64,000 bases of DNA, from the NCBI RefSeq assembly GCF_030915405.1, contig NZ_CP133262.1, positions 2,356,001 to 2,420,000 of the forward strand. The letters are read 5' to 3'. Under the pieces are notes generated by a model. It worked only from the letters and a program-made list of their open reading frames with translations. It did no database searches and was not told the DNA's origin. Positions within the stretch are counted from its first letter, which is position 1. Each line of letters opens with the position of its first letter. This document shows, one piece after another, positions 22,860-42,495 of this stretch. The stretch is from Neobacillus nitrireducens. Lineage in GTDB: Bacteria > Bacillota > Bacilli > Bacillales > Cytobacillaceae. A program made the position numbers and the translations under genes.

Positions 22860-23023
22860 CCTGAAGAACCTCCCTTTAGTTAATTTTTCAGAATAGTCAA
22901 TAAATATATTATATCACTTTCTATTGCAGTTAAAAATAAGTTTACGGTAAATTGGGACATTCTTTTCTTTTTAATCAACTTTCAAAGTATAATTGGTCCA
23001 AAGACATAAAGGGGATATCAAAG

Positions 23024-23524
23024 TTGGAAAAGGACCAAGCTATTTTTTTAGCAAACTGTATCGAGACCTCTAATCCATCGCACTTTGGGATTAAAAAACT
23101 TGAAATTATTAATGGCAGCTTGCCGAAGTTCCATCAATGGACAAACGGGAAACCCACATTAGCAGCATATGAGGTAACCCGGCCAGATAACGATACGGGC
23201 TATTACTTTGTATTCATTGATTGGCATCGTAATGACAACTATTATTTAGTCATTTATGCGCATGATCGGTCCACGACTTGTGCAGAGATACGACAAACTC
23301 AGGAAATTGACGGAGTTCCACATATTATCTGGGCATACAAGCCATTTAAACGTGATGGAAAAAATGACCAAAGAAAAGCCTATTTTAAGCAAATGTTCGG
23401 TTCAACAACCGTTCAAATCCAACTGCCTTCTTCATCACTTGATGTGGAGGTATTTTTATCACAAATGTTTAAGCTCTGCCAGAACCGGATAAAAGCAGAC
23501 CGAATCGTAGAAGTGTTTGACTAA
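23024..23524 (+). CDS. Uncharacterised protein
   Basis: 166 aa from TTG 23024, chosen because AAAGGGGAT precedes it at proper spacing and a TATAAT box at 22988-22993 lies inside the longer frame that starts at 22952. Mixed alpha/beta composition, aromatic-rich centre (YYFVFIDWHRNDNYYLVIYAHD), no signal peptide or membrane segment. I do not recognise the family. The zinc-ribbon gene follows 25 bp downstream on the same strand, so the two are probably cotranscribed. Confidence 0.65.
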   Translation: MEKDQAIFLANCIETSNPSHFGIKKLEIINGSLPKFHQWTNGKPTLAAYEVTRPDNDTGYYFVFIDWHRNDNYYLVIYAHDRSTTCAEIRQTQEIDGVPHIIWAYKPFKRDGKNDQRKAYFKQMFGSTTVQIQLPSSSLDVEVFLSQMFKLCQNRIKADRIVEVFD

Positions 23525-23549
23525 GAATAAAGATTGGAGTGTTTTGAAG

Positions 23550-23816
23550 ATGACTACATACAAAAGCTGTCAAAGCTGCGGAATGCCGTTGGCAAAAGAT
23601 GAACTTGGGGGCGGAACGGAAAAGAACGGAACGAAAAGCGCCAAGTATTGCAGCCACTGCTATATAAACGGAGAATTCACTTTACCGAATATTACAGCTG
23701 ATGAAATGAAAGATAGAGTAAAACAAAAGATTGTTGAATTTGGGATGCCGAAGTTTATCGCGGGGGTGTTTACAAGGAATATACCGAAGCTAGAAAGGTG
23801 GAAAATAGGGAAGTAG
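23550..23816 (+). CDS. Small putative zinc-ribbon protein
   Basis: 88 aa from ATG 23550 with TTGGAGTG upstream. Four cysteines in two pairs, CQSCGMP at the N-terminus and YCSHCY about 27 residues later, match the short putative zinc-ribbon family found beside MerR or GyrI-like genes in Firmicutes. The C-terminal half is basic and helical (DEMKDRVKQKIVEFGMPKF). Role unknown; nucleic acid or protein binding would be usual for such a fold. Confidence 0.8.
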   Translation: MTTYKSCQSCGMPLAKDELGGGTEKNGTKSAKYCSHCYINGEFTLPNITADEMKDRVKQKIVEFGMPKFIAGVFTRNIPKLERWKIGK

Positions 23817-23818
23817 GA

Positions 23819-23844
23819 AAAAGGAGGCACCTGCGCCTCCTTTT
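23819..23844. terminator. Bidirectional terminator
   Basis: AAAAGGAGGC-ACCTGC-GCCTCCTTTT between the convergent zinc-ribbon gene and the ABC ATPase; T-runs on both strands. Confidence 0.85.
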
Positions 23845-23846
23845 AG

Positions 23847-24569
23847 TTATAAAACTTTACTTAAAAACGCCTTCGTTCGCTCTTCTTTTGGGTGATCAAA
23901 TAATTCAACTGGAACATTTTCTTCGACAATCAATCCGCCATCCATAAAAATCACGCGATCGCCCACTTCTTTTGCAAAGCCCATTTCATGGGTGACGACT
24001 ACCATTGTCATGCCTTCTTTAGCCAAATCCTTCATAACCTCCAATACTTCACCAACCATTTCTGGGTCGAGTGCTGAAGTTGGTTCATCAAAAAGCATGA
24101 TTTTTGGCTCCATGGCTAGCGCTCTTGCTATTGCAACACGCTGCTTTTGCCCTCCGGATAAAGAGTCGGGATAAGCATCTGCCTTATCCTCTAAGCCCAC
24201 TTTTCGTAAAAGCTCCAAACCCTTAGCTCTTGCTTTTTCTTTGGGAGTATTTCTTACTTTCATGGGTGCGAGCATAATATTTTCAATGACGTTTTTATGC
24301 GGAAAAAGATTGAATTGCTGAAACACCATGCCCACTTCTGTTCTTACTTTATTGATGTCGGTATTTTTATCAGTTAAATCGATGCCTTCAATTAAGACAT
24401 GACCACCGGTAATCGTTTCCAGCATATTTATGCAGCGAAGGAAAGTCGACTTTCCGGAACCGGATGGTCCGATTACTACGACTACCTCTTGATTCTTGAC
24501 CGTCACGTTGATGTCCTTGAGGACCTCGTTTTTACCAAAGGATTTTTTTAAATTCTTCACCTGGATCAT
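23847..24569 (-). CDS. Polar amino-acid ABC transporter ATPase (copy 1)
   Basis: 240 aa from ATG 24569, which overlaps the permease stop codon (ATGA). The frame reads further upstream to 24701 but that stretch lies inside the permease gene. Walker A GPSGSGKS (34-41), Q-loop VFQQFNLFP, signature LSGGQKQR, Walker B IMLFDEP, switch His in VTHEM. GlnQ/HisP-type importer subunit. It differs from copy 2 (34382-35104) at only four of 240 residues. Last gene of the hut-linked minus-strand cluster. Confidence 0.95.
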
Positions 24570-25222
24570 TCGGTTGCCAACCTTCTTTCTAGGCGGGATA
24601 ACAAGTAGCTTAGGGAAAGCGTTAACACTAGATATATGAGAGCTGTGGTAAGATACGGCTCCCACACACGGTAGTACTGTCCTTGCATCGCTCGGCCCCA
24701 ATACATTAGTTCTGGTGCTGCAATAAGAGCTGCAAGGGAGGATTCCTTAATTAGAACAATAAATTCATTACCCAAAGGCGGGATCATTCTTTTGAAAGCT
24801 TGTGGCAGAATGATGTATCTCATAGCTTGTACATGATTCATGCCGAGTGAACGTGCAGCTTCCATCTGGCCCTTCTCAATCGATTGGATCCCTGCTCGTA
24901 ATATTTCTGCTATATAGGCTGCTGCATTTAAGGACAGAGTTAAAATCGCTGCTGTTATCGCATTTGTTTCACCTAGAAATAGTGGTACAACCGCAAAATG
25001 AATTAACAATATTTGGACCATAAAGGGTGTACCGCGGAAAAATGTAATATACCATCTAAAAGGTAAGGCATAAACCTTTTTTTTCAACATTTTTCCTAAT
25101 CCTATAAACAACCCAAGAATGGTTCCTAGTAAAATACCAGCAAGTGAAAGCCCAATCGTCAGTAACGTTCCTTTAACGAAAAATGAGCTATATTCAGCTA
25201 AAAGATCCCAACGAAAATCCAT
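24566..25222 (-). CDS. Polar amino-acid ABC transporter permease (copy 1)
   Basis: 218 aa HisM/GlnP-type permease with five predicted membrane helices. The EAA coupling loop ([22 protein letters not shown]) lies near residue 120 and docks on the ATPase. The C-terminal half is almost identical to copy 2, whereas the N-terminal third has diverged. Translationally coupled to the ATPase and preceded by the binding protein gene 26 bp upstream. Probably functions as a homodimer because only one permease is encoded. Confidence 0.92.
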
Positions 25223-25248
25223 GAATCAATCCTCCTCATCAAAAACTA

Positions 25249-26070
25249 TTACTTTTCTGTTAATAGGTTTAAATCAGGATTTACCTTGAACCACTCATTG
25301 TAAATTTTCGTATATGTTCCGTTTTCAATTACCTTTTTGATTGCTTTATCAAATTCTTCTTTTAGCTTGCTCCCCTTTGGGTACATAAGACCATAGAGTT
25401 CCTTTTCAAAGTTTACTTCGTCTTTAATTAGAACCACGTTCTCTTTCGGATTATTTTTCACATACTCCTCTACTACGGTGTTATCTGCGACAACTGCATC
25501 GGCACCGCCGCCTTTCATCTCCATAATAGCTAAGTTTGTGCTTTCAAATTTTTTAAGATTAGAGCTGTTTTTCCCAAGAATTGCTTCAACCACTTCTTGA
25601 CCAGTAGTTCCATTTTGAACGCCGACTACTTTATCCTTCAAATCCATAGCATCTTTAATATTACTGCCTTTTGGCACTAGAATTTCATTCATAGAAATAA
25701 AGTACGGAATAGAAAAATCATATGTTTGTTGACGTTCTTCATTAATAGTAATGGCAGAAATCCCTAGGTCTGCAGTTTTCCCTTTAATTTCGACAAATAA
25801 AGGATCCCAGCCCACGTGCACAATCTTAATCTTATAACCTGCTTCCTTTGCAATCGCCTCCATCAAGTCAATATCGAACCCTTTTATCTTCCCTTTATCC
25901 AGATACTCAAACGGAGCATATTCGGCATTAGATACAACTTTCAGAGTCTTCTTTTCACTAGTATTTCCACTATTAGTTTCACTGCCATTCGTCTTACTTG
26001 TCCCACATGCGGATAGAATAACCATCAAAGAAAAAACCATAACAATAGATAATAATTTAAGCGCTTTCAT
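25249..26070 (-). CDS. ABC transporter solute-binding lipoprotein (copy 1)
   Basis: 273 aa from ATG 26070 (GAGGGGGTTAATT upstream; the frame to 26112 lacks a ribosome site). Signal peptide with lipobox LSAC near residue 22 gives a membrane-anchored lipoprotein. Family 3 binding protein with YAPFEYLDKGKIKGFDIDL near the start and ADAVVADNTV in the second lobe. Next to hutH on the same strand, so histidine or another basic/polar amino acid is the likely ligand (inference). Confidence 0.92.
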   Translation of the reverse strand: MKALKLLSIVMVFSLMVILSACGTSKTNGSETNSGNTSEKKTLKVVSNAEYAPFEYLDKGKIKGFDIDLMEAIAKEAGYKIKIVHVGWDPLFVEIKGKTADLGISAITINEERQQTYDFSIPYFISMNEILVPKGSNIKDAMDLKDKVVGVQNGTTGQEVVEAILGKNSSNLKKFESTNLAIMEMKGGGADAVVADNTVVEEYVKNNPKENVVLIKDEVNFEKELYGLMYPKGSKLKEEFDKAIKKVIENGTYTKIYNEWFKVNPDLNLLTEK

Positions 26071-26151
26071 AATTAACCCCCTCGTTTCTAGTAGAATGGT
26101 AGAAAGAATCATTAGTCCATCAAAACAAGTGACTAGAATTATTCTTATTGT

Positions 26152-26192
26152 GGAGCTGCCCTAAGCTTATTTTGGCAATGGGGCAGGTCTCC
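26152..26192. other. Intercistronic hairpin between hutH and the ABC genes
   Basis: GGAGCTGCCC (26152-26161) pairs with GGGCAGGTCTCC (26181-26192) around an 18-nt loop. No T-run on the minus strand, so it looks like an mRNA processing or stability element rather than a terminator; it may set the ratio of hut enzymes to transporter. Confidence 0.45.
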
Positions 26193-26201
26193 GCAGTTTG
26201 T

Positions 26202-27722
26202 CTAATTTAATACATTTTCACGCAAAATATATTGTGCAAGTTCCTCCATTTCATCTGAGATTGCTCTATCTCCTTCAAGCGGCGGACAAATTTCACGGAT
26301 TTTCTCTAGGTATCCCCTTGTCGCTGGTGCTAATTCCTTTTCTGCTTTTTCCAAGTAAATCGCTTGCGAGGCACAGATCATCTCAATGGCAATTACTCGG
26401 GCTGAGTTGTGAATGATCTCCCGTGCTTGACGTGAGGCAATGGTACCCATGCTGACATGGTCTTCCTGATTGGCAGAGGTCGGAATAGAATCAACACTTG
26501 CTGGATGCGCAAGCACTTTATTCTCAGAAACGAGTGAGGCGGCTGCATACTGTGCAACCATCAAGCCGCATTCTAACCCTGGGTCCACTGCTAAGAATGG
26601 TGAAAGTCCACTTAATTGAGGGTTAACGAGCCGTTCCGTTCTTCGCTCAGAAATATTCGCCCATTCCGCTGCAGCAACCTTCAGAAAGTCCATTGACAGT
26701 GCAATCGGCTGACCGTGGAAGTGCCCCCCTGAGATGACCTCTCCGCTTTCTAAAACAATTGGATTGTCTGTTGCTGAGTTCATTTCAACTAGCAGTCTTT
26801 CATCTACATAATTAAATGCTTGCCATGATGCACCATGTACTTGTGGGATACAGCGGATGGAGTACGAATCTTGAACACGGATTTCGCCTTGATGCGTGAT
26901 TCGTTTACTGCCTTCAAGCCATTTTCTCATTCGTGATGCCACGAATTCCAACTCTGGATGCGGGCGGACGGCTAATAATTCGCTGTCAAAAGCAGAAATA
27001 ATCCCTTTTAGTGCCTCCATTGTTAAGCACGCAGCCATATCAGCAGCGAGGCCCACACGCTCTGCTTCGTTAAGGGCGATTACACCCACACCTGACATAC
27101 ACTGTGTTCCATTAATTAGGGCTAGCCCTTCCTTTGCCTCCAGCACAACTGGTCGAAGCCCTGCTCGTTTAAGCGCTTCGCCCCCAGGAAGGATTTGTCC
27201 TTTGTATTCTGCCTTCCCTTCCCCAACTAATACGATTGCGATATGTGAAAGTGGAGCTAAATCACCACTTGCACCAACGGAACCCTTACTAGGAACAACT
27301 GGATGAACACCTTCATTAATCATATCAACTAGAAGCTTTAGTGTTTCTTCTCTAATTCCTGAGAATCCTTTCGCCAGTGAGTTTGCCCTTAATGTCATCA
27401 TTGCCCTCACCACTGGAGTTGGGAGCGGGTCACCTACACCTACCGCATCTGCCCGTAATAAATTCAGCTGCAACTTTCCTATATCTTCTCTATCTATCTC
27501 GATATCACTTAGTTTACCGAAACCAGTATTAACACCGTATACTACTTTCCCATCATTGATTTGTTTTTCAATTCGACTACGACTGGCCCGTACTCTCACA
27601 AGGCTTTTCTCCGGTATGGCGACCTTCGCATTTCCTTTAGAAACGTTTTCTACCTTGTGACGATCAAGCGTAAGACCATCTAACTCTATCAATTTTAATC
27701 CGACTAATTCGCTTTTACTCAT
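26202..27722 (-). CDS. hutH: Histidine ammonia-lyase
   Basis: 506 aa. The Ala-Ser-Gly triad that cyclises into the MIO cofactor is at 151-153 (GSVGASGDLAPLSH), and YGVNTGFG near residue 62 carries the active-site tyrosine. Deaminates L-histidine to urocanate and ammonia, the first step of histidine use. It lies downstream of hutU, hutI and the M20 gene, the reverse of the B. subtilis order in which hutP and hutH lead. A 181-bp gap precedes it, with no T-box or HutP-type element that I recognise. Confidence 0.96.
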   Translation of the reverse strand: MSKSELVGLKLIELDGLTLDRHKVENVSKGNAKVAIPEKSLVRVRASRSRIEKQINDGKVVYGVNTGFGKLSDIEIDREDIGKLQLNLLRADAVGVGDPLPTPVVRAMMTLRANSLAKGFSGIREETLKLLVDMINEGVHPVVPSKGSVGASGDLAPLSHIAIVLVGEGKAEYKGQILPGGEALKRAGLRPVVLEAKEGLALINGTQCMSGVGVIALNEAERVGLAADMAACLTMEALKGIISAFDSELLAVRPHPELEFVASRMRKWLEGSKRITHQGEIRVQDSYSIRCIPQVHGASWQAFNYVDERLLVEMNSATDNPIVLESGEVISGGHFHGQPIALSMDFLKVAAAEWANISERRTERLVNPQLSGLSPFLAVDPGLECGLMVAQYAAASLVSENKVLAHPASVDSIPTSANQEDHVSMGTIASRQAREIIHNSARVIAIEMICASQAIYLEKAEKELAPATRGYLEKIREICPPLEGDRAISDEMEELAQYILRENVLN

Positions 27723-27903
27723 CCTATGTCCAACTCCCTTGAAGAATAATTATCTGACTTTATAAAATGTTTTGAAGATACCGTTATAATAGCATAAAGA
27801 ATATATTAGGATAGCGAGCACAAAAATTTTCATAGTTTACTATCAGTATCTAATCCAGGAACCCGGTTAAAATGTTCTAGATGACACCCTAAGTTCCAAA
27901 TCC

Positions 27904-29070
27904 TTAAGAGTTTTTATGGTTGGCATACCACTGTTCAATTAAAGCCGCTGTCAATTTCCCTGTGTTAACAAGGTTTTCAATGCTTATACACTCTCTAAAT
28001 GAATGGATATTTTGAAAACCTAGACCGAGTGTTATGCAGGTTAATCCATTTTCATTTAGTACATTTGTATCTGCACCACCCAATGTTTCTGTTAAATAGG
28101 AATTCACCTTAATACTTTTCGCCGCTTCTTCTACTGTTTTCACTAAAATGTCATCCTTAGGAATATCAAACCCAAGATATTTCTTCTCAATTCTGACCTG
28201 CACCTTCCCACCGTTCTTTTCAGCCACTTGCTCCATCACTTCTTCCATCTGTTTCAGTTGAGCATCTAACTTCTCTTTTGAAAAACTACGCACTTCCCCG
28301 GCAATGGTTACACTACCTGGAATAATCGATGTAAGTTCTCCACCCCTGATAATCCCGATATTTGCGAGCGTCTCATCATCAATTTCACCAAGTCTCATTT
28401 TTGCCAATCCTTCGGCTGCAATCAGAATTGCACTATTCCCTTCCTCCGCATTTAGGGCAATATGAGCGGCCTTCCCTTGAACTTCCATCCAGATCCGGCT
28501 GCTGTAAGGTCCCTTTAGAATGATTTGGCCGACATCGCCGCTGCTGTCGAAAATATATCCAGTTTTACTTTTTGCTTTGCTGTAATCCATATAGGTTGCC
28601 CCGACAAGACCAGGCTGTTCATTGACGGTTAGGATAAATTCGATCGGACCATGTGGAACCCCGCTGTCGATGATTGCCTGAATCGCTTCTAAATAAGCGG
28701 CCAATGCGGCACGATCATCGGCACCCAAAATCGTCGTTCCGTCCGAATAAATGATGCCATCTTTAATAACTGGCTTTAAGCCTTCGGTTGGGAGAACGGT
28801 ATCCATATGTGTTGAAAAAAATAACGGTGGGATTGTTAGATCTGTTCCTTCACGCCAGGCAATCAGGTTACCAACTTCTCCATCAAATTTTTCATGTGCG
28901 TTATCAAATTCCAGGGTAAAACCGAGTTTTGGCAGTGCGTCTTTTAGATACTCTGCCACAAGTTGTTCCTTTGTGCTTGGTGCATTTATTTTTGCTAATT
29001 CTAAAAATAGCTCCTGTAATCGTTCTGCATTTACATATTCAGCAGCACTGGTTACTTGATTCATTTTCAT
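27904..29070 (-). CDS. M20-family metallopeptidase/hydrolase inside the hut operon
   Basis: 388 aa, PepT-like M20 fold. Metal ligands visible: STHMDTV (His, Asp near 88-90), LGADDRAA (near 118), final HSF motif near 357 (NIHSFRE). The usual catalytic pair Glu-Glu reads NEQ here (TVNEQPGLVGA near residue 152): the general-base Glu is kept, the second, metal-binding Glu is Gln. Sits where hutG might be expected. It could split His-containing dipeptides such as carnosine, or hydrolyse a hut intermediate; both are inferences. ATG 29070 after AGGAGGGAATATAA. Confidence 0.82.
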   Translation of the reverse strand: MKMNQVTSAAEYVNAERLQELFLELAKINAPSTKEQLVAEYLKDALPKLGFTLEFDNAHEKFDGEVGNLIAWREGTDLTIPPLFFSTHMDTVLPTEGLKPVIKDGIIYSDGTTILGADDRAALAAYLEAIQAIIDSGVPHGPIEFILTVNEQPGLVGATYMDYSKAKSKTGYIFDSSGDVGQIILKGPYSSRIWMEVQGKAAHIALNAEEGNSAILIAAEGLAKMRLGEIDDETLANIGIIRGGELTSIIPGSVTIAGEVRSFSKEKLDAQLKQMEEVMEQVAEKNGGKVQVRIEKKYLGFDIPKDDILVKTVEEAAKSIKVNSYLTETLGGADTNVLNENGLTCITLGLGFQNIHSFRECISIENLVNTGKLTAALIEQWYANHKNS

Positions 29071-29098
29071 TTATATTCCCTCCTATGAATCTATTAAC

Positions 29099-30346
29099 TT
29101 ACTGGCCGACGACGACTTTCCCGTTTTTGATAACAGTCTCAACGATATTTGTTCCAAGTTCGTAAGCGATGTGCTTATAAGTTGGTACATCCCAAATTTG
29201 CAGGTCAGCTATTTTTCCTGCTTGGACTACACCTCTATCATCGAGATCAAGTGCCTTTGCTCCTCCATACGTCGCTGCCTTTATCGCTTCCTCGACTGAG
29301 AATTTATATAATTTGCACGCTAAATTTATAACAAACTGCATAGATTCTGTGTAGCATGCGGGACAGAGATCTGTTGCCAGTGCGATATTCATGCCCAAAT
29401 CGAGCATCTCCCTAGCGTCAAATGGGCGCTTATGCCCCACTGCGAAATCTAATGCCGGCATTAATACTCCCGTTACATTTGCCTCTGCCAGTTTTTTCAT
29501 TACTTCTACTGGTGTATAGTTTAAATGGTCTACTGATACCATTTTCATTTTTGCTGCTAAATCTGTTCCACCAATATAAGAGTAGGCATCGGCATGAATT
29601 TTTGGTTTCATCCCGTATTCCAAACCAGCTTTCAAGATGATTTCAGATTCTTCAGCTGTAAAATAGCCATCATCACACCAAACATCACAAAATTCCGCTA
29701 ATCTCCGCTCGCCTACTTGCGGGATCATCTCGTTAATGATTACTCCAAGGTATTCACTTTTTGTTAAATTCTCAGGAAAACCATGCGCTCCTAAAAATGT
29801 ATTTAATACATCAAGAGGTGTTTCTTCATTCAGTCTCCTACTTACCTCTAGGATTTTAATCTCACTTTCAGTCGTTAATCCGTATCCGCTTTTGCTTTCA
29901 ACAGTGGTTATCCCATATTCAAGCATTTTCAGTACGCGCTTCTTTGATTGATTAAATAACTCATTTTCCGGGGTATTTCGTGTGAGTTCAACCGTTCTAT
30001 TCGGACCGGTTGTGATCCCTAGTTTCGCCAACTTTTCGGGGGTATCTCCGGCTAGTTTTGCTGCATACTCTTCAACACGTGTGCCAAAGAAAACTAAATG
30101 TGTGTGGGCATCAACAAATCCGGGGGCAACAACTTTTCCTGAGGCGTCAATGATAATTGATTGCCCTAAATCAAACTCTCTTTTAATCTCTGTTTCGGAT
30201 CCAACACCAGCAATTTTGCCATCGTTAATGGCAATCCAGGCATTTTCAATGAGTCCGAGATCGCCCATGCCTGCCCCAGTACATGTAACGAGTTCCGCAG
30301 CATTGGTTATTAGTAAATCAATCTTTGTCTTCAACATAGTTTCCAC
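29099..30346 (-). CDS. hutI: Imidazolonepropionase
   Basis: 415 aa from GTG 30346: the GAGAGGAG ribosome site lies inside the longer frame that begins at 30370, so that ATG cannot be the start; ATG 30337 is the alternative. Amidohydrolase metal site VDAHTHLVFFGTR near residue 75, HADAY near residue 245, and the late Asp in ALATDLCPACY near residue 320. Hydrolyses 4-imidazolone-5-propionate to N-formimino-L-glutamate. Upstream of the M20 gene with a 28-bp gap, clearly one operon. Confidence 0.93.
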   Translation of the reverse strand: METMLKTKIDLLITNAAELVTCTGAGMGDLGLIENAWIAINDGKIAGVGSETEIKREFDLGQSIIIDASGKVVAPGFVDAHTHLVFFGTRVEEYAAKLAGDTPEKLAKLGITTGPNRTVELTRNTPENELFNQSKKRVLKMLEYGITTVESKSGYGLTTESEIKILEVSRRLNEETPLDVLNTFLGAHGFPENLTKSEYLGVIINEMIPQVGERRLAEFCDVWCDDGYFTAEESEIILKAGLEYGMKPKIHADAYSYIGGTDLAAKMKMVSVDHLNYTPVEVMKKLAEANVTGVLMPALDFAVGHKRPFDAREMLDLGMNIALATDLCPACYTESMQFVINLACKLYKFSVEEAIKAATYGGAKALDLDDRGVVQAGKIADLQIWDVPTYKHIAYELGTNIVETVIKNGKVVVGQ

Positions 30347-30424
30347 GATCCAACACTCCTCTCTTTTCAAAGTATTCTATGTAGATTTGTCCTTTAGCCA
30401 TATGGCCTAAGGGTCCAGAATACA

Positions 30425-30462
30425 TAGATAGAGATCCTACTTTTTTAGAATCTCTACCTATA
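30425..30462. other. Intercistronic hairpin between hutU and hutI
   Basis: ATAGATAGAGAT / ATCTCTACCTAT pair over about 12 bp around a T-rich loop. A T-run follows on the plus strand only (TATTTTTAAAAG), so it would terminate antisense transcription or act as a stability element in the hut mRNA. Confidence 0.45.
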
Positions 30463-30474
30463 TTTTTAAAAGTA

Positions 30475-32196
30475 TTAAGACTTTATGTTTTCAGGCTTTA
30501 AATCTTTCGGTCCAAACGTCGCCTTTGGTGACCACCATAATGGAATTTTGATGCTTTCCTTCGTAAGTTTCCCTTTTCCATTAGCAACATCTTGAGCCGT
30601 TTCATAACCGGCTTGGGCATGGCGGACAACACCAATTCCAGAGTCCACAGTCATCGCCACTTCCAACCTCATGTCCGATTCTGCTGTTCCATCTGCAACC
30701 ATCGTTACCCCCGTATGGACCGCTTCACCCATTGAATAGTTCGCTTGCAGTGCAATAAGATCACACATACCTACGGCGTTCAATAAACCATTCAATACCG
30801 GCCAGTCAGAGATGAGGTCCCCGCCATCTTTCATATTTTCAGACTCAAACGTCGGATTCACAATGGAACCGGAATCTAAGTTATCTCGTGAGAATGCTAC
30901 AGGACCGGCAAGCTCGCCGCGTCTGATCATATCATTTACTTCCAATGCAAATTCCTTGCGCTGACCAAAGCCCATGTAACAAATACGTGCAGGTAATGCT
31001 TCAATTGGAATATGCTCCTTAGCAAGCTTAATCCAACGGGTAACAAGTAGATCATCATTAAACTTTTCTAAGATCATATCGTCAATTTTTCTTAAATCCT
31101 CTGCTTCACCAGAGAGACAGATCCAGCGGAAAGGTCCACGGCCTTCACAGAAGAGCGGACGAATATATTCTGCTACGAATCCTGGAAGACGCTTGGCTTC
31201 CTTCGCATCCATACCTGCGTCCATACACTCTTTGCGATGACTAGTTCCATATTCAAATGAGTGGACACCTAAATCCATAAATTTGATCAATGCTTTCAAC
31301 TCACGGACCATCGTTTCCCGCGCTTTTTCTAAGTAAAGGGTACGATTAGTATCACGAAGTTCATCTGCTTCCTGAACAGTGTAACCAGAAGGTAAGTAGG
31401 AAATTGGATCATGACCAGGAGTCATCGATGTGGAAATATCCGGCAGGAATCCTTTTTGAATGACTTCTTCAAAAATATCAGCTGCGTTACCAACGACTGC
31501 AATGCCTAGCGGCTTTCCTGCAGCAGCATATTCCTTGGCCAATACAATTGCTTCGTCCAATGAATCTACTAAAACATCAATAAATTTCTTTTCAATACGG
31601 CGCTTTATAATTTCCACATTCGAATCACATAGAATAGCCACACCGCCGTGCATGGTCATTGCTCTTGTCTGATTTCCGCCCATTCCGCCAGCGCCAGCTG
31701 TTAGAAGAATTTTCCCAACTAGCGAGTCATCATAATGAAGGCGTGCAATTGCGGACAAAGTCTCAAATGTTCCTTGGATAACACCTTGTGTTCCGATATA
31801 CTCCCAAGGGGCAGCTGTATAGTTCGCATACATTGTTAAGTTTTTATCTTGAAGATCGTAGAAAGTCGGCCAGTCTGCTTTCATAATATTTGTCGTTGCC
31901 ATTACAACCGTTGGGGCATATTTATGAGTTTTGAAGATTGCTACAGGCATACCTGATTGAACAACAAGTGTTTCGTTATCTTCAAGTTCTTTTAAAGATT
32001 TCACAATCGCATGGTAGGACTCCCAGTTACGTGCCGCTTTACCAATCCCGCCATAAATGACAAGCTCTTCTGGTTTTTCAGCATTCTCCATATTGTTTTC
32101 AAGCATTCTTAAAATCGCTTCTTGTCTCCAACCCTTACAACGAAGTACAGGACCTCTTTGCGCTTTAACTGAATATAAGATTTCCGGATTTGACAT
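30475..32196 (-). CDS. hutU: Urocanate hydratase
   Basis: 573 aa, slightly longer than the usual 550-560. YGGIGKAARNWES near residue 48, NAD-binding GAGGMGGNQ near residue 167, and the conserved GHDPISYLPSGYT and EYGTSHRKECMDAG blocks. Converts urocanate to imidazolonepropionate with a tightly bound NAD. Leads the operon: its ATG (AGGAGGAATCACTC upstream) is the first start after the sigma-54 promoter at 32249-32265. Confidence 0.95.
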   Translation of the reverse strand: MSNPEILYSVKAQRGPVLRCKGWRQEAILRMLENNMENAEKPEELVIYGGIGKAARNWESYHAIVKSLKELEDNETLVVQSGMPVAIFKTHKYAPTVVMATTNIMKADWPTFYDLQDKNLTMYANYTAAPWEYIGTQGVIQGTFETLSAIARLHYDDSLVGKILLTAGAGGMGGNQTRAMTMHGGVAILCDSNVEIIKRRIEKKFIDVLVDSLDEAIVLAKEYAAAGKPLGIAVVGNAADIFEEVIQKGFLPDISTSMTPGHDPISYLPSGYTVQEADELRDTNRTLYLEKARETMVRELKALIKFMDLGVHSFEYGTSHRKECMDAGMDAKEAKRLPGFVAEYIRPLFCEGRGPFRWICLSGEAEDLRKIDDMILEKFNDDLLVTRWIKLAKEHIPIEALPARICYMGFGQRKEFALEVNDMIRRGELAGPVAFSRDNLDSGSIVNPTFESENMKDGGDLISDWPVLNGLLNAVGMCDLIALQANYSMGEAVHTGVTMVADGTAESDMRLEVAMTVDSGIGVVRHAQAGYETAQDVANGKGKLTKESIKIPLWWSPKATFGPKDLKPENIKS

Positions 32197-32248
32197 GAGT
32201 GATTCCTCCTAAGATAAATGTTGTTTTGTTGTACTCACATTTATATTT

Positions 32249-32265
32249 TGCAAGTACCGTGCCAA
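32249..32265 (-). promoter_or_regulatory. Sigma-54 promoter of the hut operon
   Basis: Minus strand TTGGCACGGTACTTGCA, a near-perfect -24/-12 element with GG-N10-GC spacing, 53 nt upstream of the hutU start codon. The divergent neighbour encodes a sigma-54 activator. Confidence 0.92.
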
Positions 32266-32280
32266 TTTGGCCGAATTGGC
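32261..32280. promoter_or_regulatory. Inverted repeat overlapping the -24 element
   Basis: GCCAATTTGGCCGAATTGGC: perfect 7-bp arms GCCAATT / AATTGGC. Its left arm shares bases with the -24 box, so a protein bound here could block sigma-54 polymerase. Binding protein unknown. Confidence 0.5.
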
Positions 32281-32371
32281 TAAATTCCTCTTAATAAACA
32301 CGCTACTAGCTGATTAGACAGTCTATTTGATTCTTCCTATCTATTAAAAGAAGATTTGTTTTCCAAAACAA

Positions 32372-32391
32372 GCGCAGATACTTTTTGCATG
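32372..32391. promoter_or_regulatory. Candidate activator site (UAS 1) for hut
   Basis: GCGCAGATACTTTTTGCATG, a partial dyad (GCAgATA...TTTTGC) that recurs 79 bp further away. About 120 bp upstream of the predicted hutU transcription start, a normal enhancer distance. Confidence 0.6.
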
Positions 32392-32450
32392 GGTTATATT
32401 CATATCTTTCGACTTTGGATTTTTATATATAAACAGTTACAACTTTATAA

Positions 32451-32470
32451 GTGCAGATAGATTTTGCATG
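32451..32470. promoter_or_regulatory. Candidate activator site (UAS 2), possibly also autoregulatory
   Basis: GTGCAGATAGATTTTGCATG matches UAS 1 at 16 of 20 positions. It overlaps the expected -35 region of a TATAAT box at 32480-32485 that would drive the activator gene, so binding could repress the activator while enhancing hutU. Confidence 0.6.
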
Positions 32471-32549
32471 CAGGCTATTTATAATTTTTAAAATAAATGA
32501 TATATTCTGAATATAGTGTTGTGAACTATTTATAGGGGGGCTGATAGAC

Positions 32550-34253
32550 TTGGTTGAAGAATCAATAGGGTCGATAATTAGAGGATTTGTAGATGGAGTC
32601 ATTGTATTAAACGATACCTACGAAATTTTATGGTATGACATCAATGCCGACATCCAATTAGACATTGAACTTGGCCTAAATTTCATAGATCTGTTTCCTT
32701 GCAGCCACGAACAAATAATAACGAATGGGAAATTTCTGCTTACAGTTACCGAGAAAAAACTTATGGTGGAAGTTAAAAAGTTCACCATGGATCATGATTA
32801 TTTCATTCTCTGTGTTGAAGAAACTACGAATCTAACAGCAAATCTGAAAAATAGATTATATTGCCTTGAAAAAATTGTTGATACGCTTAATGAAGGCGTT
32901 ATGATGAGTGATCATGAAGGTAAGATTATCCTTTACAATGATGCCCAGGAAAAACTAGAGGGGTTAGAAAGCCGTGAAATTATTGGCAAGCATCTATGGT
33001 CAGTCTATAATTATAATCCGCAATATTCCGAGCATAAACATACATTTAAAACGGGAAAACCAATTTTCTCAAGGTATCGGGCTCACTCCACTATAAATGG
33101 CGTTCCTAAGTATGTTAATTACAGTACGTTTCCTATCAAGAAGGATGGAGAAACGATTGCTGTTTTTTCACTAAGCACGAACGAATCAAACCTCAAGGAT
33201 CGGTTGCACCAAACCATTGAGCTTAAAAGGCAAAACGTTCATTCGGAATCAAATAATCGTCCAAATAAAAATGGCACCTCTTTTACCTTTGATCATATTA
33301 AAGGCACTAGCCTTGCCTTAAAAAATTTAATCCATGAAGCGGAAAATATTTCAGTACATAATACAGACGTATTAATTGTCGGAGAAACTGGAACAGGGAA
33401 AGAGCTATTTGCCCAGAGCATGCACAATCACAGTCCCAGAGCAGCAAATCCCTTTGTTGCCATTAACTGTGCAGCCATTCCGGAAACCCTCTTGGAAAGC
33501 ACCCTGTTCGGAACAGTGAAAGGAGCTTTTACGGGGGCGGCAAATCAAATAGGTCTGTTTGAATTTGCCAAGAATGGTACACTTTTTCTAGATGAAATTA
33601 ACTCGATGCCCGTGACATTACAATCCAAGCTAATGAGAGTTCTGCAGGAACGTTTGGTTCGCAGGGTCGGTTCCAATGGAGTGACACCTGTGGAGTGTAC
33701 AGTGATTAGCGCATCCAACGAAGATCCGGAGAAACTGATTGAGGAAGGAAGGATGCGCCTTGACTTATTCTATAGAATTGCGCCCACAAGCCTATATATA
33801 ACTCCCTTAAGGGAACGAACGGAGGATATACTATTTTTCATTGATTACTTTCTTCATACATTCCAGAAGAAGTTCAATAAACAAGTCCCAGCTCTATCTA
33901 AGACATTACTTTCCATGTTACTGCAATATCATTGGCCAGGGAACACACGTGAATTAGAGCATTTAATTGAGAATTTAATTATTAGGTTTGGCGATACGGA
34001 GCAGGAAATTGACGTTGAACATCTCCCTGCATATATAAGGGGAAAAATCATTACCGATCGACCAAATAAAAATAAACAAAAGGAAATGAAAAAGCATCCA
34101 TTTAAATCTATCTTTTCTACTTCCCAAGAACACTATATCCAGAAGGTTTTAGATGAAACAGAAGGGAACATCTCAAAAGCAGCCAAAAAGCTAGGAATCA
34201 CCCGGCAAAGCTTGCAATATCATATTAAAAAACATGGTCTTAAAAAACAATAA
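32550..34253 (+). CDS. Sigma-54-dependent activator, PAS plus AAA+ plus Fis HTH (hut regulator)
   Basis: 567 aa, TTG start with TATAGGGGGGCTGATAGAC. An N-terminal region (1-95) of weakly PAS-like character, a clear PAS domain around 105-210 (VDTLNEGVMMSDHEGKIILY), AAA+ core with Walker A GETGTGKE (278-285), GAFTGA (325-330) and LFLDEIN Walker B, and a Fis-type HTH at the C-terminus (ISKAAKKLGITRQSLQYHI). Architecture resembles RocR-class catabolic activators. Divergent from hutU with two matching sites between them, so it most likely activates the hut operon in response to histidine or urocanate (inference). Confidence 0.92.
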   Translation: MVEESIGSIIRGFVDGVIVLNDTYEILWYDINADIQLDIELGLNFIDLFPCSHEQIITNGKFLLTVTEKKLMVEVKKFTMDHDYFILCVEETTNLTANLKNRLYCLEKIVDTLNEGVMMSDHEGKIILYNDAQEKLEGLESREIIGKHLWSVYNYNPQYSEHKHTFKTGKPIFSRYRAHSTINGVPKYVNYSTFPIKKDGETIAVFSLSTNESNLKDRLHQTIELKRQNVHSESNNRPNKNGTSFTFDHIKGTSLALKNLIHEAENISVHNTDVLIVGETGTGKELFAQSMHNHSPRAANPFVAINCAAIPETLLESTLFGTVKGAFTGAANQIGLFEFAKNGTLFLDEINSMPVTLQSKLMRVLQERLVRRVGSNGVTPVECTVISASNEDPEKLIEEGRMRLDLFYRIAPTSLYITPLRERTEDILFFIDYFLHTFQKKFNKQVPALSKTLLSMLLQYHWPGNTRELEHLIENLIIRFGDTEQEIDVEHLPAYIRGKIITDRPNKNKQKEMKKHPFKSIFSTSQEHYIQKVLDETEGNISKAAKKLGITRQSLQYHIKKHGLKKQ

Positions 34254-34327
34254 CTTGGAGGAAATTGGTAAGGTACGAATTTTCTACTTATTTTTGACTT
34301 ATGGGTCGTTAATAAGTAAAAAAATAC

Positions 34328-34375
34328 CCGGATTTCGAACACTTTTTACGGTGTGTGCAAAATCCGGATTTTTTT
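34328..34375 (+). terminator. Terminator after the hut activator
   Basis: CCGGATTT / AAATCCGG with a 24-nt loop that contains a small ACAC/GTGT pairing, followed by ATTTTTTT. Confidence 0.8.
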
Positions 34376-34381
34376 ACATGT

Positions 34382-35104
34382 TTACAACACCTTGCTTAAG
34401 AAGGCTTTTGTTCTGTCTTCTTTTGGGTGATCAAATAATTCGACTGGAACATTTTCTTCGACAATCAAACCGCCATCCATAAAAATCACGCGATCGCCCA
34501 CTTCTTTGGCAAAGCCCATTTCATGGGTGACGACTACCATTGTCATGCCTTCTTTAGCCAAGTCCTTCATAACCTCCAGTACCTCACCGACCATTTCTGG
34601 ATCGAGTGCTGAAGTTGGTTCATCAAAAAGCATGATTTTTGGCTCCATGGCTAGCGCCCTTGCTATTGCAACACGCTGCTTTTGCCCTCCGGATAAAGAG
34701 TCGGGATAGGCATCTGCCTTATCCTCTAAGCCGACTTTACGTAAAAGCTCCAAACCCTTAGCTCTTGCTTTTTCTTTGGGAATATTTCTTACTATCGTGG
34801 GTGCGAGCATAATATTTTCAATGACGTTTTTATGCGGAAAAAGATTGAATTGCTGAAACACCATGCCCACTTCTGTTCTTACTTTATTGATGTCGGTATT
34901 TTTATCAGTTAAATCGATGCCTTCAATTAAGACATGACCACCGGTAATCGTTTCCAGCATATTTATGCAGCGAAGGAAAGTCGACTTTCCGGAACCGGAT
35001 GGTCCGATTACTACGACTACCTCTTGATTCTTGACCGTCACGTTGATGTCCTTGAGGACCTCGTTTTTACCAAAGGATTTTTTTAAATTCTTCACCTGAA
35101 TCAT
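34382..35104 (-). CDS. Polar amino-acid ABC transporter ATPase (copy 2)
   Basis: 240 aa, ATG 35104 overlapping the permease stop (ATGA). Same Walker A (GPSGSGKS), LSGGQKQR and switch-His motifs as copy 1; the only differences are three residues in the segment after IENIMLAP and one Glu/Asp change near the C-terminus. The DNA is also nearly identical, including the intergenic junction with the permease, which points to recent duplication or gene conversion. Confidence 0.95.
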
Positions 35105-35757
35105 TCGGTTGCCAACCTCCTTTCAAGACGGGATAACAAGTAGCTTAGGGAAAGCGTTAACACAAGATAAATTACTGCTGCCGCAATATACGGTTCCCAG
35201 ACACGGAAATACTGTCCTTGCATCGCTCGTCCCCAATACATAAGTTCAGGAGCTGCAATTAAAGCTGCCAGCGATGACTCTTTGATTAAGACAATAAATT
35301 CATTTCCAAGTGGTGGAATCATCCGTTTAAAGGCTTGAGGAAGGATAATAAACCGCATAGCTTGTACATGATTCAACCCTAAAGAACGAGCTGCCTCCAT
35401 CTGCCCCCGATCAATCGATTGAATTCCTGCGCGGAAGATTTCAGCAATATATGCCGCCGCATTTAAAGATAAAGTAAGTATAGCAGCTAAAATGGGATTT
35501 GTTTTTCCTAGAAAAAGAGGTACAACGGCAAAATGGATTAATAATATTTGAACAAGTAACGGTGTGCCTCGAAAAAAGGTAATGTAAATGGTAAAAGGCC
35601 AAGCGAGGAGCTTATTTTTCATAATTTTCCCTAATCCGACTAATAAGCCAAGAATGGTACCAATCAAAATACTGGCGATTGAAAGCCCAATGGTTAGTAT
35701 CGTTCCCTTAAGAAAAAAAGGAGCGTATTCGACTAAAATATCCCAACGAAAATCCAT
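35101..35757 (-). CDS. Polar amino-acid ABC transporter permease (copy 2)
   Basis: 218 aa, same length and topology as copy 1. The last 40 residues are close to identical, while residues 1-60 differ at many positions (for example [18 protein letters not shown] against [18 protein letters not shown]). EAA loop [23 protein letters not shown] 35757 after AATAGGGGGATTTACGT. Coupled to the ATPase. Confidence 0.92.
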
Positions 35758-35808
35758 ACGTAAATCCCCCTATTAACAACAAGCTACTTATATGAATCTT
35801 ACTAGCAA

Positions 35809-35845
35809 AAATTGCGTAACTGCTATAATAAGAGTTACGCAATTT
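35809..35845 (-). terminator. Attenuating terminator between binding protein and permease genes
   Basis: Perfect 12-bp inverted repeat AAATTGCGTAAC / GTTACGCAATTT with a 13-nt loop, followed on the minus strand by TTTTTGCTAG. It would let the binding protein be made in excess over the membrane components. Confidence 0.75.
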
Positions 35846-35857
35846 ATTCACCAATGA

Positions 35858-36691
35858 TTATTGTTGATCCTTCAAATTTTGTGTATCTGGCTCAACTTTA
35901 AACCACTTCTTGTAAACTTCTGCATAGGTTCCGTTATCAATAACTGCTTTCACAGCCTTATCAAAGTCTGCTTTAATCTTGCTGTCTTTTGGAAACATGA
36001 GTCCGTAAAACTCCTTAGCAAAAGCAGATGAATCCTCAATTACCACGAAATTATCTTTCGGGTTATTTTTTACATATTCCTCGATAACCGTGTTATCCGC
36101 AACGACCGCATCTGCTCCGCCGCCTTTAAGTTCTAAGATTGCTAGATTATTATTTTCAAACTTTTTAATTTTATCGCTATTTTTACCTAAAAGTCCTTCA
36201 ACCGCTTCTTGTCCAGTTGTCGCATTTTGAACAGCTATCGTTTTATTATTTTTTAAATCTGCTGCACTCTTAATATCGCTATCTTTTGGAACGAGAATTT
36301 TGTTGGTCGATAAAAAGTATGGCACTGAAAAATCATAGCTTTGTTTTCTTTCATCATTAATCGTGATAGCGGAAATTCCAATGTCGGCGATTTTCTTATC
36401 TAATTCAACGAAGATTGGATCCCAGCCAACATGCTCTATATTAATTTTATAGCCGGCTTCCTTTGCTACTGCATTAAGAAAGTCGATATCAAACCCGACA
36501 ACTTCCCCTTTATCCTGGTATTCAAACGGTGCATAGGCAGCATCTGTTACAACGCGTAATGTTTTCTTTTCTGCATCCCCACCCGTTGTTTTAGTACCAC
36601 TTGTGCTTGTACTTTTACTCGTTCCACAGGCTGAAAGTACTAAGAGAAGTGCCACCACCAATACAGTCGAAACTAATTTTAATTGCTTCAT
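35858..36691 (-). CDS. ABC transporter solute-binding lipoprotein (copy 2)
   Basis: 277 aa. Signal peptide with lipobox LSAC (cysteine near 22), a short Ser/Thr-rich linker, then a family 3 binding protein (DAAYAPFEYQDKGEVVGFDI). Clearly paralogous to the copy 1 binding protein but more diverged than the ATPases, so ligand preference may differ. Own sigma-A promoter upstream, not a sigma-54 one. ATG 36691 after TTGGAGGTAGGAAA. Confidence 0.92.
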   Translation of the reverse strand: MKQLKLVSTVLVVALLLVLSACGTSKSTSTSGTKTTGGDAEKKTLRVVTDAAYAPFEYQDKGEVVGFDIDFLNAVAKEAGYKINIEHVGWDPIFVELDKKIADIGISAITINDERKQSYDFSVPYFLSTNKILVPKDSDIKSAADLKNNKTIAVQNATTGQEAVEGLLGKNSDKIKKFENNNLAILELKGGGADAVVADNTVIEEYVKNNPKDNFVVIEDSSAFAKEFYGLMFPKDSKIKADFDKAVKAVIDNGTYAEVYKKWFKVEPDTQNLKDQQ

Positions 36692-36760
36692 TTTCCTACC
36701 TCCAATACTTTTTTTAAAAAGTAATTTTTTAAAAGATTGATAATATTTTGAATATAAATG

Positions 36761-36789
36761 ATTATAACTTGTTTCGACTAAATATTCAA
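36761..36789 (-). promoter_or_regulatory. Sigma-A promoter of ABC transporter copy 2
   Basis: Minus strand TTGAAT (36784-36789), 17-nt spacer, TATAAT (36761-36766). The rest of the 300-bp gap to norB is AT-rich; no other clear signal was found there. Confidence 0.75.
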
Positions 36790-36991
36790 TAAATTTAATA
36801 TTTCACTATATTAATACTGTAATTAACTAAAGTGCCGTACATTTTAGAATAATAAAAATAGGGTGATTTCCAATTTTAAGAAATGGATGAATTTATTCCA
36901 AGTTAACGGGAATGATATTGGTTAGAATTTCCTACACAGGGAGTTCTATAGAAGCTAAATAAATCAGGAAAATAAATTCGGAGGTGTATGC

Positions 36992-39271
36992 ATGCGTTAT
37001 ACAAGATTGTGGATTAGCTTAGCAATCGTATTTATTGTTTCTTTTGCAATTCTTGGATATTACGGAGGCAGACTTTATCAAACTATGCCGCCGATTCCAG
37101 ATCGAGTTGTTTCTTCTGACGGTACTGTCCTATATACAAAACAAGATATTCAAGATGGACAAAATGTTTGGCAGTCCATTGGAGGACAGGAACTGGGAAG
37201 TATTTGGGGGCACGGTGCCTATGTGGCCCCGGACTGGAATGCGGATTGGCTCCATCGGGAATCGATGTGGCTGTTAAATTACTGGGCCCAGAAAGAACGC
37301 GGGAAACAGTATTCAGCCCTTGATGATGAAACAAAGGCCGCACTAAGAGCTAGGTTAAAAAATGAAATTAGACCTAACACTTATAATAAAGAAACAAAGG
37401 AAATTACCTTATCCCCTTTAAGGATTCAAGCGATTCAACAAGTGAGTAATCATTACGCTGCATTATTTACAGATGATACTTCAGTTGATAAATTGCGAGA
37501 TGCCTATGCGATGCCAAAGAATGTCATCAAGGATGATACCCGCTTAGGTGCGTTTATCAGCTATATTTGGTGGACAACCTGGGCTACTGAAACCAATCGA
37601 CCAGGCGATAATGTTACTTACACAAATAACTGGCCAAATGAGGACCTTATTGAAAATAAAGCGACTGGTGAAATGCTTGTCTGGTCGGTTGTCAGCTTTG
37701 TACTTCTGCTTGCAGGAGTTGGCGCTCTAGCGTGGTACCACGCCACTCAAAATCATCATGATGAGGAGGAGTCCTTTCCGAAAAAAGATCCGCTATTAGC
37801 TCTGGCTGCTACCCCATCGATGAAAGCAACACAGAAATACTTCTGGGTAGTTGCTGCTTTATGGCTAGTCCAAGTGTTACTAGGTGCCGTTACCGGTCAT
37901 TATCAGGTCGAAGGAAGTGCCTTTTATGGCATCCCCATAGCTGATTATATTCCCTATTCTTTGACTAGGTCTTGGCATACTCAATTAGGTATTTTGTGGA
38001 TTGCGACAGCCTGGCTAGCCACCGGATTGTTTATTGGACCTGCCGTCTCTGGCTATGAACCAAAATTCCAGCGTTTTGGCGTGAACTTCTTATTTATTTG
38101 TTTATTAATTATTGTTGTTGGCTCGATGATTGGACAATGGATGGCTGTTCAGCAAAAACTCGGGCATGTAACCAACTTTTGGTTTGGACATCAAGGCTAT
38201 GAATATACCGACACCGGTCGCTTTTGGCAAATATTTCTAACCGTCGGATTATTTCTCTGGTTATTCCTGATGGTCCGGTCCATCTGGCCTGCTTTTAAAA
38301 ATTTAAAAGAAAGCCGCCATTTACTGGCCCTATTTTTAATTGCTTCTACGGCCATTCCAGTATTCTATATACCGGCCTTATTATGGGGGCAGCATAGTAA
38401 CCTGGCTATTGCTGAATACTGGCGCTGGTGGGTTGTCCACCTTTGGGTTGAGGGCTTCTTTGAAGTTTTCGCTACCGTGGTCATGGCCTTCCTGTTCACA
38501 AGAATGGGCTTACTGGGACTTCGGACTGCCACTACCTCTGTCCTATTTTCAACAATTATCTTCCTATTTGGGGGTATTATCGGTACGTTCCACCATTTAT
38601 ATTTTAGTGGTACACCTACCGGAGTCATCGCTTTCGGCGCAACATTTAGTGCACTTGAAGTCGTTCCACTCGTGTTAATTGGATTTGAAGCGTACGAAAA
38701 CCTGACCCGGAGTCGCGCGCGGAAGTGGGTTTCGGCCTATAAATGGCCCATCTATTTCTTTATTTCTGTTGCATTTTGGAATTTAGTCGGGGCTGGATTA
38801 TTCGGGTTCTTTATCAATCCGCCAATTTCCCTTTATTATATGCAGGGTCTTAATACGACAGCTGTTCACGGTCACACGGCCTTATTTGGTGTATACGGTA
38901 TGCTCGGTATTGGTTTAATGCTCTTCTGCCTCCGTGGTTTGACTGTCAAGAAAGAATGGAGAACAGGGCCGCTTAAACTTGCCTTTTGGGCTATAAATAT
39001 CGGGTTGGCCTTAATGGTCTTGATTAGCCTGATACCAATTGGATTAATGCAAACATGGGCAAGCGTCCAACATGGCATGTGGTATGCTCGATCTGCTGAG
39101 TTCATGTCACGGGATATTGTTCACTTCTTTGTCTGGATGCGCATCATCGGCGATACAATCTTTTCAATTGGGGCACTTGCCCTTGTATGGTTTATCATCG
39201 GTCTCAAAACAGGCTGGTCACTTACCAAGGACAGACTTGATTACGCTGAAACGGATAACAAAAACGTATAG
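36992..39271 (+). CDS. norB: Quinol-dependent nitric oxide reductase (qNor)
   Basis: 759 aa: one N-terminal membrane helix, a periplasmic-type domain of about 190 residues (SIGGQELGSIWGHGAYVAPD), then twelve further helices of the heme-copper oxidase fold. Histidine ligands visible in RSWHTQLGILW (heme), the HH pair of GTFHHLYFSGTP (non-heme iron) and HGHTALFGVYG. The fused N-terminal domain without a heme c motif marks the quinol-oxidising single-subunit form. Reduces NO to N2O for detoxification or denitrification. No nitrite reductase or norQ/D genes adjacent; monocistronic. Confidence 0.92.
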   Translation: MRYTRLWISLAIVFIVSFAILGYYGGRLYQTMPPIPDRVVSSDGTVLYTKQDIQDGQNVWQSIGGQELGSIWGHGAYVAPDWNADWLHRESMWLLNYWAQKERGKQYSALDDETKAALRARLKNEIRPNTYNKETKEITLSPLRIQAIQQVSNHYAALFTDDTSVDKLRDAYAMPKNVIKDDTRLGAFISYIWWTTWATETNRPGDNVTYTNNWPNEDLIENKATGEMLVWSVVSFVLLLAGVGALAWYHATQNHHDEEESFPKKDPLLALAATPSMKATQKYFWVVAALWLVQVLLGAVTGHYQVEGSAFYGIPIADYIPYSLTRSWHTQLGILWIATAWLATGLFIGPAVSGYEPKFQRFGVNFLFICLLIIVVGSMIGQWMAVQQKLGHVTNFWFGHQGYEYTDTGRFWQIFLTVGLFLWLFLMVRSIWPAFKNLKESRHLLALFLIASTAIPVFYIPALLWGQHSNLAIAEYWRWWVVHLWVEGFFEVFATVVMAFLFTRMGLLGLRTATTSVLFSTIIFLFGGIIGTFHHLYFSGTPTGVIAFGATFSALEVVPLVLIGFEAYENLTRSRARKWVSAYKWPIYFFISVAFWNLVGAGLFGFFINPPISLYYMQGLNTTAVHGHTALFGVYGMLGIGLMLFCLRGLTVKKEWRTGPLKLAFWAINIGLALMVLISLIPIGLMQTWASVQHGMWYARSAEFMSRDIVHFFVWMRIIGDTIFSIGALALVWFIIGLKTGWSLTKDRLDYAETDNKNV

Positions 39272-41957: not shown

Positions 41958-42284
41958 ATGGGAAAAGATATGTCTTATAAAGATAAAAAGGTTATTACCA
42001 TCGGAATCGTCAGGGACCTCACTGGTCTCTCCGAACGACAAATACGGTATTACGAAGAACGGAAGCTTATTTTTCCTGAAAGGTCTGCTGGAGGAAGCCG
42101 CAAATTCTCCTTTTCAGATGTGGAATTACTGATGGACATCGCCAATAAGATTGAAGACGGAGTTCAAACACATGATATTAGGAAAGAGATGCTTCGCGAA
42201 CAAAAGAAGCATAATCAAGAAGATGTCCGCAGAAAGATGATTCAAGGACAGCTAAACGCCCAATTTGGTTTACGGAAAAAGTAA
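41958..42284 (+). CDS. tnrA: Nitrogen regulator TnrA (MerR family)
   Basis: 108 aa. MerR-type winged helix at the N-terminus ([13 protein letters not shown] near residues 26-38) and the short C-terminal segment [13 protein letters not shown] that feedback-inhibited glutamine synthetase grips in TnrA. No effector domain beyond that, as expected. Activates nitrogen-scavenging genes and represses glutamate synthesis when glutamine is scarce. amtB, a classic target, is the next gene. GlnR is the close alternative, but N-terminal [13 protein letters not shown] and the C-terminal tail favour TnrA. Confidence 0.9.
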
Positions 42285-42300
42285 AGAACTCATCTTTCTT

Positions 42301-42333
42301 CCCATTCCTTCTATAAAAAGGGATGGGCTTTTT
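42301..42333 (+). terminator. Terminator after tnrA
   Basis: CCCATTCC / GGATGGG stem with wobble pairing, followed by CTTTTTC. Confidence 0.75.
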
Positions 42334-42456
42334 CATTCCTTCCTCTCCAGCAACGAACAAGATGGTATTATCCCCCTCTTTTAAAAACCATGTTAGATTT
42401 CCTTCCAAACTTATAGAAACCATCACAGAATCATGTAAGAATACTAACATACCGAA

Positions 42457-42473
42457 TGTTAAGAAAATTAACA
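42457..42473 (+). promoter_or_regulatory. TnrA/GlnR box upstream of amtB
   Basis: TGTTAAGAAAATTAACA fits TGTNA-N7-TNACA. A 16-nt near-copy TGTAAGAATACTAACA lies at 42434-42449 and a weaker one at 42391-42407. The promoter hexamers are not obvious, so which box activates and which represses is unresolved. Confidence 0.75.
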
Positions 42474-42495
42474 TCATTTATAAGGGGGAGAATAA

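Follow-up and report, generated by a model that had tools for sequence, protein, structure and literature searches.

The window (the whole 64-kb stretch of DNA that was analysed) contains, judged from its sequence, a second and paralogous set of hut genes, present in addition to the genome's ordinary ones, which is in all probability a sigma-54-dependent operon activated by a divergently encoded, PAS-type enhancer-binding protein. We regard sigma-54 control of this operon as very likely. In the mechanism that we propose, the sensor part of the activator would probably detect an imidazole compound (histidine, urocanate or one related to them). The activator would bind UAS sites and, by looping, reach RNA polymerase-sigma-54 on the -24/-12 element, where its hydrolysis of ATP would open the promoter. 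The operon thus expressed would comprise hutU-hutI-M20-hutH and probably the following transporter, with the M20 hydrolase acting, we infer, in the last step. The features concerned are these:

32249-32265, minus strand: -24/-12 sigma-54 promoter element TTGGCACGGTACTTGCA (consensus scan, conservation)
30475-32196, minus strand: hutU, class-A urocanate hydratase, 573 aa (profile matches, tree)
29099-30370, minus strand: hutI, imidazolonepropionase-like (profile match, motif)
27904-29070, minus strand: M20 hydrolase, PepT-like, TIGR01883 (profile match)
26202-27722, minus strand: hutH, ammonia-lyase of the MIO type in which Asp takes the place of His83 (profile match, alignment)
23847-26112, minus strand: amino-acid ABC transporter genes, from about 90 bp past hutH (annotation)
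32374-32390, minus strand: proximal UAS-like site ATGCAAAAAGTATCTGC (pattern scan, conservation)
32453-32469, minus strand: distal UAS-like site ATGCAAAATCTATCTGC; spacing to the proximal site 79 bp (pattern scan)
32550-34253, plus strand: divergent sigma-54 activator gene, 567 aa, with PAS (probably two), AAA+ with GAFTGA and Fis-type HTH (Pfam, motif, model)
34382-36691, minus strand: another amino-acid ABC transporter, similar to the first, on the far side of the activator gene; a putative regulon member (domain matches)

The -24/-12 element before hutU

The preliminary description had placed a near-ideal -24/-12 element directly before hutU, and this was borne out. The 17-mer TTGGCACGGTACTTGCA (32265-32249 on the minus strand) has both the GG and the GC of the element, is separated by 52 nt from the ATG of hutU, its downstream gene, and is the one exact match to TGGCACN5TTGCA in the 64-kb window; AGGAGG stands before the same ATG at 32205-32210. 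An exact match by itself is no proof of a promoter, because TGGCACN5TTGC occurs 15 times genome-wide against 4 for a reversed-pattern control, and the 193 matches at the 3-mismatch level in the window (shuffled mean 155.7, sd 12.7) say little on TTGGCACGGTACTTGCA alone. When the 700 bp upstream of hutU were subjected to 2000 mononucleotide shuffles, the exact site appeared in none of them and a one-mismatch best site in two.

Transcription from sigma-54 promoters starts about 12 nt past the -12 GC, and a start at that distance would give hutU a leader of about 40 nt. The earlier statement that neither hutP nor a HutP-like leader is present also held: HutP (PF09021) had no match in the window genome, in a search that did match B. 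subtilis among 14 control genomes, the consensus scan found no terminator-like hairpin at 32150-32600, and no Rfam family reached its gathering score in 23000-37000.

The 64-kb window scan returned no TnrA-box-like site at hutU, and the two that it did return, against 0.9 expected, lie before tnrA (41634 and 41886), which together with an ammonium transporter gene occupies 41958-43755. No cre-like match was found at the hutU promoter; the window has 4 such matches against 1.4 expected, one of them within hutU at 30863.

Conservation in related genomes

We called an activator orthologue wherever its N-terminal part was matched at E < 1e-80 in a family set of 193 genomes. A clear orthologue is present in 22 of the 193, the remaining family matches being at E 1e-13 or weaker and chiefly in the PAS region. 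Taking one hutU copy from each, all 22 have an exact -24/-12 element at -56 to -71, and the six extra hutU copies in those genomes have it exactly in five cases and with one mismatch in the sixth.

Related genomes were also searched for -24/-12 sites before hutU, as had been proposed earlier, in 35 named loci drawn from a scan of genome contigs with an activator alignment. They come from Neobacillus, Mesobacillus, Cytobacillus, Rossellomorea, Psychrobacillus, Sporosarcina, Bhargavaea and records labelled Bacillus or Paenibacillus. The element proved conserved before all 40 of their hutU copies: in a scan from -110 to -40, the best site has 0 mismatches in 32 copies, one in 7 and two in 1, at positions -56 to -85, for loci that are not independent, since they are mostly the same genomes as the family set, were picked by activator motifs, are kin to each other and include the window's own species (L104).

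Outside the family, class-A hutU was found at E 1e-200 in two of 398 class genomes besides the window's own (G456, G581) and in two others among 398 phylum genomes (G766, G924). In G456 the element is exact, the hutU frame is shortened and the activator frame has 463 aa; in G581 the element has two mismatches and a 473-aa relative of the activator shows 60% identity. Within the family, three genomes (G020-G022; loci L070, L177 and L178) have a class-A hutU-hutI-M20-hutH set without an activator orthologue, and there no -24/-12 element was found, the best sites having 5-6 mismatches. A divergent LysR-type gene (295 aa; Pfam) stands in L070 and L177, and L178 has a divergent frame of similar length (297 aa), an apparent regulator swap.

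The activator and its candidate binding sites

As previously noted, a sigma-54 activator gene is divergent to hutU (32550-34253). Its product has a Sigma54_activat domain (1.1e-61), a PAS domain at residues 107-205 and HTH_8, that is, PAS, AAA+ with GAFTGA, and a Fis-type HTH. A structural model of residues 1-227, of moderate confidence (mean pLDDT 73, pTM 0.46), suggests a second PAS-like unit ahead of the first. Compared with the PDB, the model matches PAS proteins at E down to 2e-9, but among the matches listed the global TM-scores all stay below 0.4. The genome has a single match to the sigma-54 DNA-binding domain.

Between the promoter and the activator gene lie ATGCAAAATnTATCTGC-like sites to which the activator would bind. 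Counted upstream from the -24/-12 element, the two in the window begin at 109 and 188 bp, both within the range of about 100-250 bp before the promoter given for UAS in the available passages of PMC6615313. Such a site is found in 35 of 35 named loci at two or fewer mismatches and in 32 of 35 at one or none, a level reached in 2 of 700 shuffled regions (mononucleotide shuffles). Two or more sites, mostly 77-81 bp apart, occur in 26 of the 35 loci; in the other 9, the 2-mismatch level gives a single site. The genome has three exact matches to the pattern, two of them at the hutU locus, a count that is partly circular because the pattern was built from these regions, including the two sites of the window.

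Five named loci have two class-A hutU copies each (L116, L118, L120, L129, L136), and each copy has its own -24/-12-like element and UAS-like site (10 of 10 copies for the latter). In four of the 35 loci (L105, L111, L112, L115) other genes, apparently a transporter operon, separate the activator from hutU by 5-6 kb; the activator-proximal side and hutU each have an element of their own (0-1 mismatch) and a UAS pair. Displaced and duplicated hutU copies that keep both features indicate that the module follows its target genes, and the presence of both before the intervening genes suggests that a second operon is probably under the activator's control at these loci. In L105 and L112 (genomes G142 and G130) the intervening genes are those of a branched-chain-type transporter, by Pfam in G130.

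Two similar amino-acid ABC transporters (23847-26112 and 34382-36691) flank the operon and activator in the window. The first, which would be co-transcribed with hutH, consists of a solute-binding protein (25249-26112), a permease (24566-25222) and an ATPase (from about 23847). On the far side of the activator, G136 and G142 have an ATPase that is a 98% match to this first ATPase.

Enzymes of the operon and their probable substrate

Class-A HutU proteins form a clade apart from ordinary HutU (support 100/100), and the HutU of the window shares about 48% identity with the ordinary HutU of its own genome. HutI has ATDLCPAC, against [AS]TDxNPG in ordinary HutI, and both HutU and HutI have further conserved replacements in their active-site regions. 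In HutH, Asp replaces His83 (which we take to follow Pseudomonas HutH numbering) in 30 of 30 class-A proteins, an alignment-based count that leaves out loci whose hutH lies past the end of the retrieved sequence; the four ordinary HutH aligned and the three PDB ammonia-lyases displayed have His at this position. In 36 of 36 M20 proteins, Glu-Gln stands for the Glu-Glu pair seen in 3gb0 and 3rza, two PepT-like structures; this pair provides the catalytic base and one of the metal ligands. There is no hutG among the genes of the operon. With M20 in mind as a stand-in for HutG, the presence of HutG was counted, and the outcome was mixed: HutG is matched at E 1e-20 in 33 of 40 class-A-set genomes and at 50% identity or more in 18 of 40, the others being at about 30% or without a match.

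Two genomes of the phylum that lie outside the class (G766 and G924; loci L173 and L174) bear on how these replacements are read. Their class-A-like HutU and HutI are encoded with ftcD, in hutU-hutI-ftcD-hutH clusters, and one of the two also has an FTCD_C gene; this company argues for urocanate-to-formiminoglutamate chemistry there. Where these clusters have ftcD the operon has the M20 gene, which makes a role of the hydrolase in the last step plausible. Position 83 of HutH is Cys in both, which shows that a hut cluster can do without His83 and weakens the His83-to-Asp change as proof of another substrate.

Two readings of the substrate compete. That the operon is a second copy for ordinary histidine under sigma-54, used for instance in scavenging under conditions unlike those of the ordinary locus, strikes us as an even prospect: HutU, HutI and HutH pass curated NCBIfam cut-offs and relatives of HutU and HutI occur in ftcD-containing clusters, but the active-site-region replacements in HutH, HutI, HutU and M20 are conserved, the HutU clade is deeply separate and the operon lacks hutG. 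That the operon serves a modified histidine or another imidazole amino acid sensed by the activator, such as N-tau-methylhistidine or acyl- or peptide-bound histidine, is possible, though we lean against it. The uniform Asp83 and Glu-Gln counts would fit it, as would the ordinary hutU found alongside in 40 of 40 genomes (sharing at least 71% identity with the ordinary hutU of the window genome, and in one genome in pieces), although ordinary hutU is common anyway, being present in 148 of 168 family genomes without the class-A set. PMC11432326 names N-tau-methylhistidine as an ammonia-lyase substrate and discusses His83. Genes beside the core in single genomes point the same way: L067 has an M29 peptidase, L079 a further M20, L074 and L085 an aminotransferase, and L074 a 2-hydroxyacid dehydrogenase as well. 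L074 also has a sodium:solute symporter, and the extra genes of L074 and L085 may perhaps serve imidazolepyruvate or imidazolelactate. It is because of the ftcD clusters and Cys83 in G766 and G924 that we rate a derivative substrate no higher. The fullest version, a Bacillales sigma-54/PAS-activator regulon for a substrate-shifted second hut pathway acting on a histidine derivative, with M20 replacing formiminoglutamase and an Asp-83 ammonia-lyase, we offer as tentative and rather doubtful.

The ordinary hut genes and HutP

The same genome has an ordinary hutU-hutI-hutG-type locus near 0.99 Mb (L066, 986-1002 kb), whose hutG scores 223.6 bits, just under the 229.15 cut-off, and two more ordinary hutH genes at 0.35 and 2.29 Mb. 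Neither HutP nor a -24/-12 element was found at this locus. Upstream of its hut genes is a 502-aa protein with an AraC-type HTH, which may be another hut regulator.

The preliminary description had presented the operon as driven by sigma-54 rather than by HutP. The first half has strong support, in that promoter, UAS-like sites and activator are conserved; the second has none, since this is a second hut set and the ordinary locus is separate. A search of related genomes for loss of hutP had also been suggested. HutP is present in 7 of the 22 activator-carrying genomes and in 44 of the 171 others (Fisher p = 0.61), so that its presence is unrelated to the activator, and in both activator genomes whose HutP locus was inspected (G112 and G150; loci L075 and L076) it adjoins ordinary hutH. 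The idea that loss of HutP let sigma-54 take over hut control, to which the HutP-less window genome lends itself, is therefore ruled out for practical purposes by these co-occurrence counts and by the separate ordinary locus, itself without HutP or element. Equally far-fetched is a chance -24/-12 match with the operon on a sigma-A promoter: sigma-A promoter-like matches do lie nearby, the one at 32525-32497 on the hutU strand agreeing at 10/12, but at chance level (3 observed against 2.2 in shuffles), and the element, with spacers that differ between copies, precedes 40 of 40 class-A hutU copies as against 0 of 19 upstream regions of ordinary hutU at two or fewer mismatches (19 of 20 regions, L168 being left out, L163 contributing only 125 bp, and L159 and L167 representing one species).

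Implications

A second hut operon under sigma-54 and a PAS-type activator would extend the range of sigma-54 in aerobic Bacillales to histidine-type catabolism, a new target for sigma-54/EBP operons of amino-acid use, and it offers a defined module of promoter, UAS and activator that is open to direct testing. The same genomes are seen to contain a pair of hut systems, each with a regulator of its own, whose urocanases lie far apart in the tree. Automatic annotation gives the two sets one name, hut; concrete leads to the substrate or the last step come from the M20 hydrolase and from the ammonia-lyase with Asp-83. If the substrate-shifted reading is true, the operon represents a catabolic pathway that is new and comes with a dedicated sensor.

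Comparison with known systems

The hut operon of B. subtilis is controlled by HutP antitermination and encodes histidine ammonia-lyase, urocanase and imidazolonepropionase. The window operon shares these three enzymes with it; unlike the B. subtilis operon it has no HutP and no hutG, no leader terminator was found, and its HutU belongs to another clade. Bacterial degradation of N-tau-methylhistidine, reportedly described by Beliaeva, Atac and Seebeck in 2022, is said to include an ammonia-lyase step; the likeness to the window operon would lie in that step, if the operon too acts on a histidine derivative.

The preliminary description considered sigma-54 control of hut genes in this family to be, as far as known, an undescribed arrangement, and part of that claim stands: the literature covered (open-access main texts) yielded no sigma-54 hut operon for Bacillaceae, and passage searches of PMC4428206, PMC12316311, PMC3162934 and PMC4524646 gave nothing relevant on hut. 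What must be qualified is novelty in the wider phylum. In Clostridium, sigma-54/EBP control is predicted for the HiaR regulon hiaL-hyp-hutH (PMC6615313, available passages), and this predicted regulon is the nearest published precedent that we found. Like the window operon it is a hutH operon of Bacillota with predicted sigma-54/EBP control; no hutU, hutI or M20 is listed for it in those passages. Our activator scan returned only Bacillaceae-, Caryophanaceae- and Paenibacillus-labelled records. A HisR paralogue adjoins hutH in Oscillibacter, according to the part of PMC9413887 available.

The closest parallels in architecture come from B. thuringiensis, as described in the available parts of PMC4428206. 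Tables 2 and 3 there, unlike the operon studied here, show no hut gene in the sigma-54 set, and a sigL mutant grew on histidine much like the wild type (16.91 vs 15.93 h). The operons of GabR, RocR, PrdR, KamR, SoxR, AcoR, BkdR and LevR nevertheless have the same arrangement as the window operon, a -24/-12 element with an AAA+ activator, and the element of the acetoin operon HD73_3213-3217, whose promoter is one of 16 that are abolished or reduced without sigL, is a 17-mer identical to TTGGCACGGTACTTGCA.
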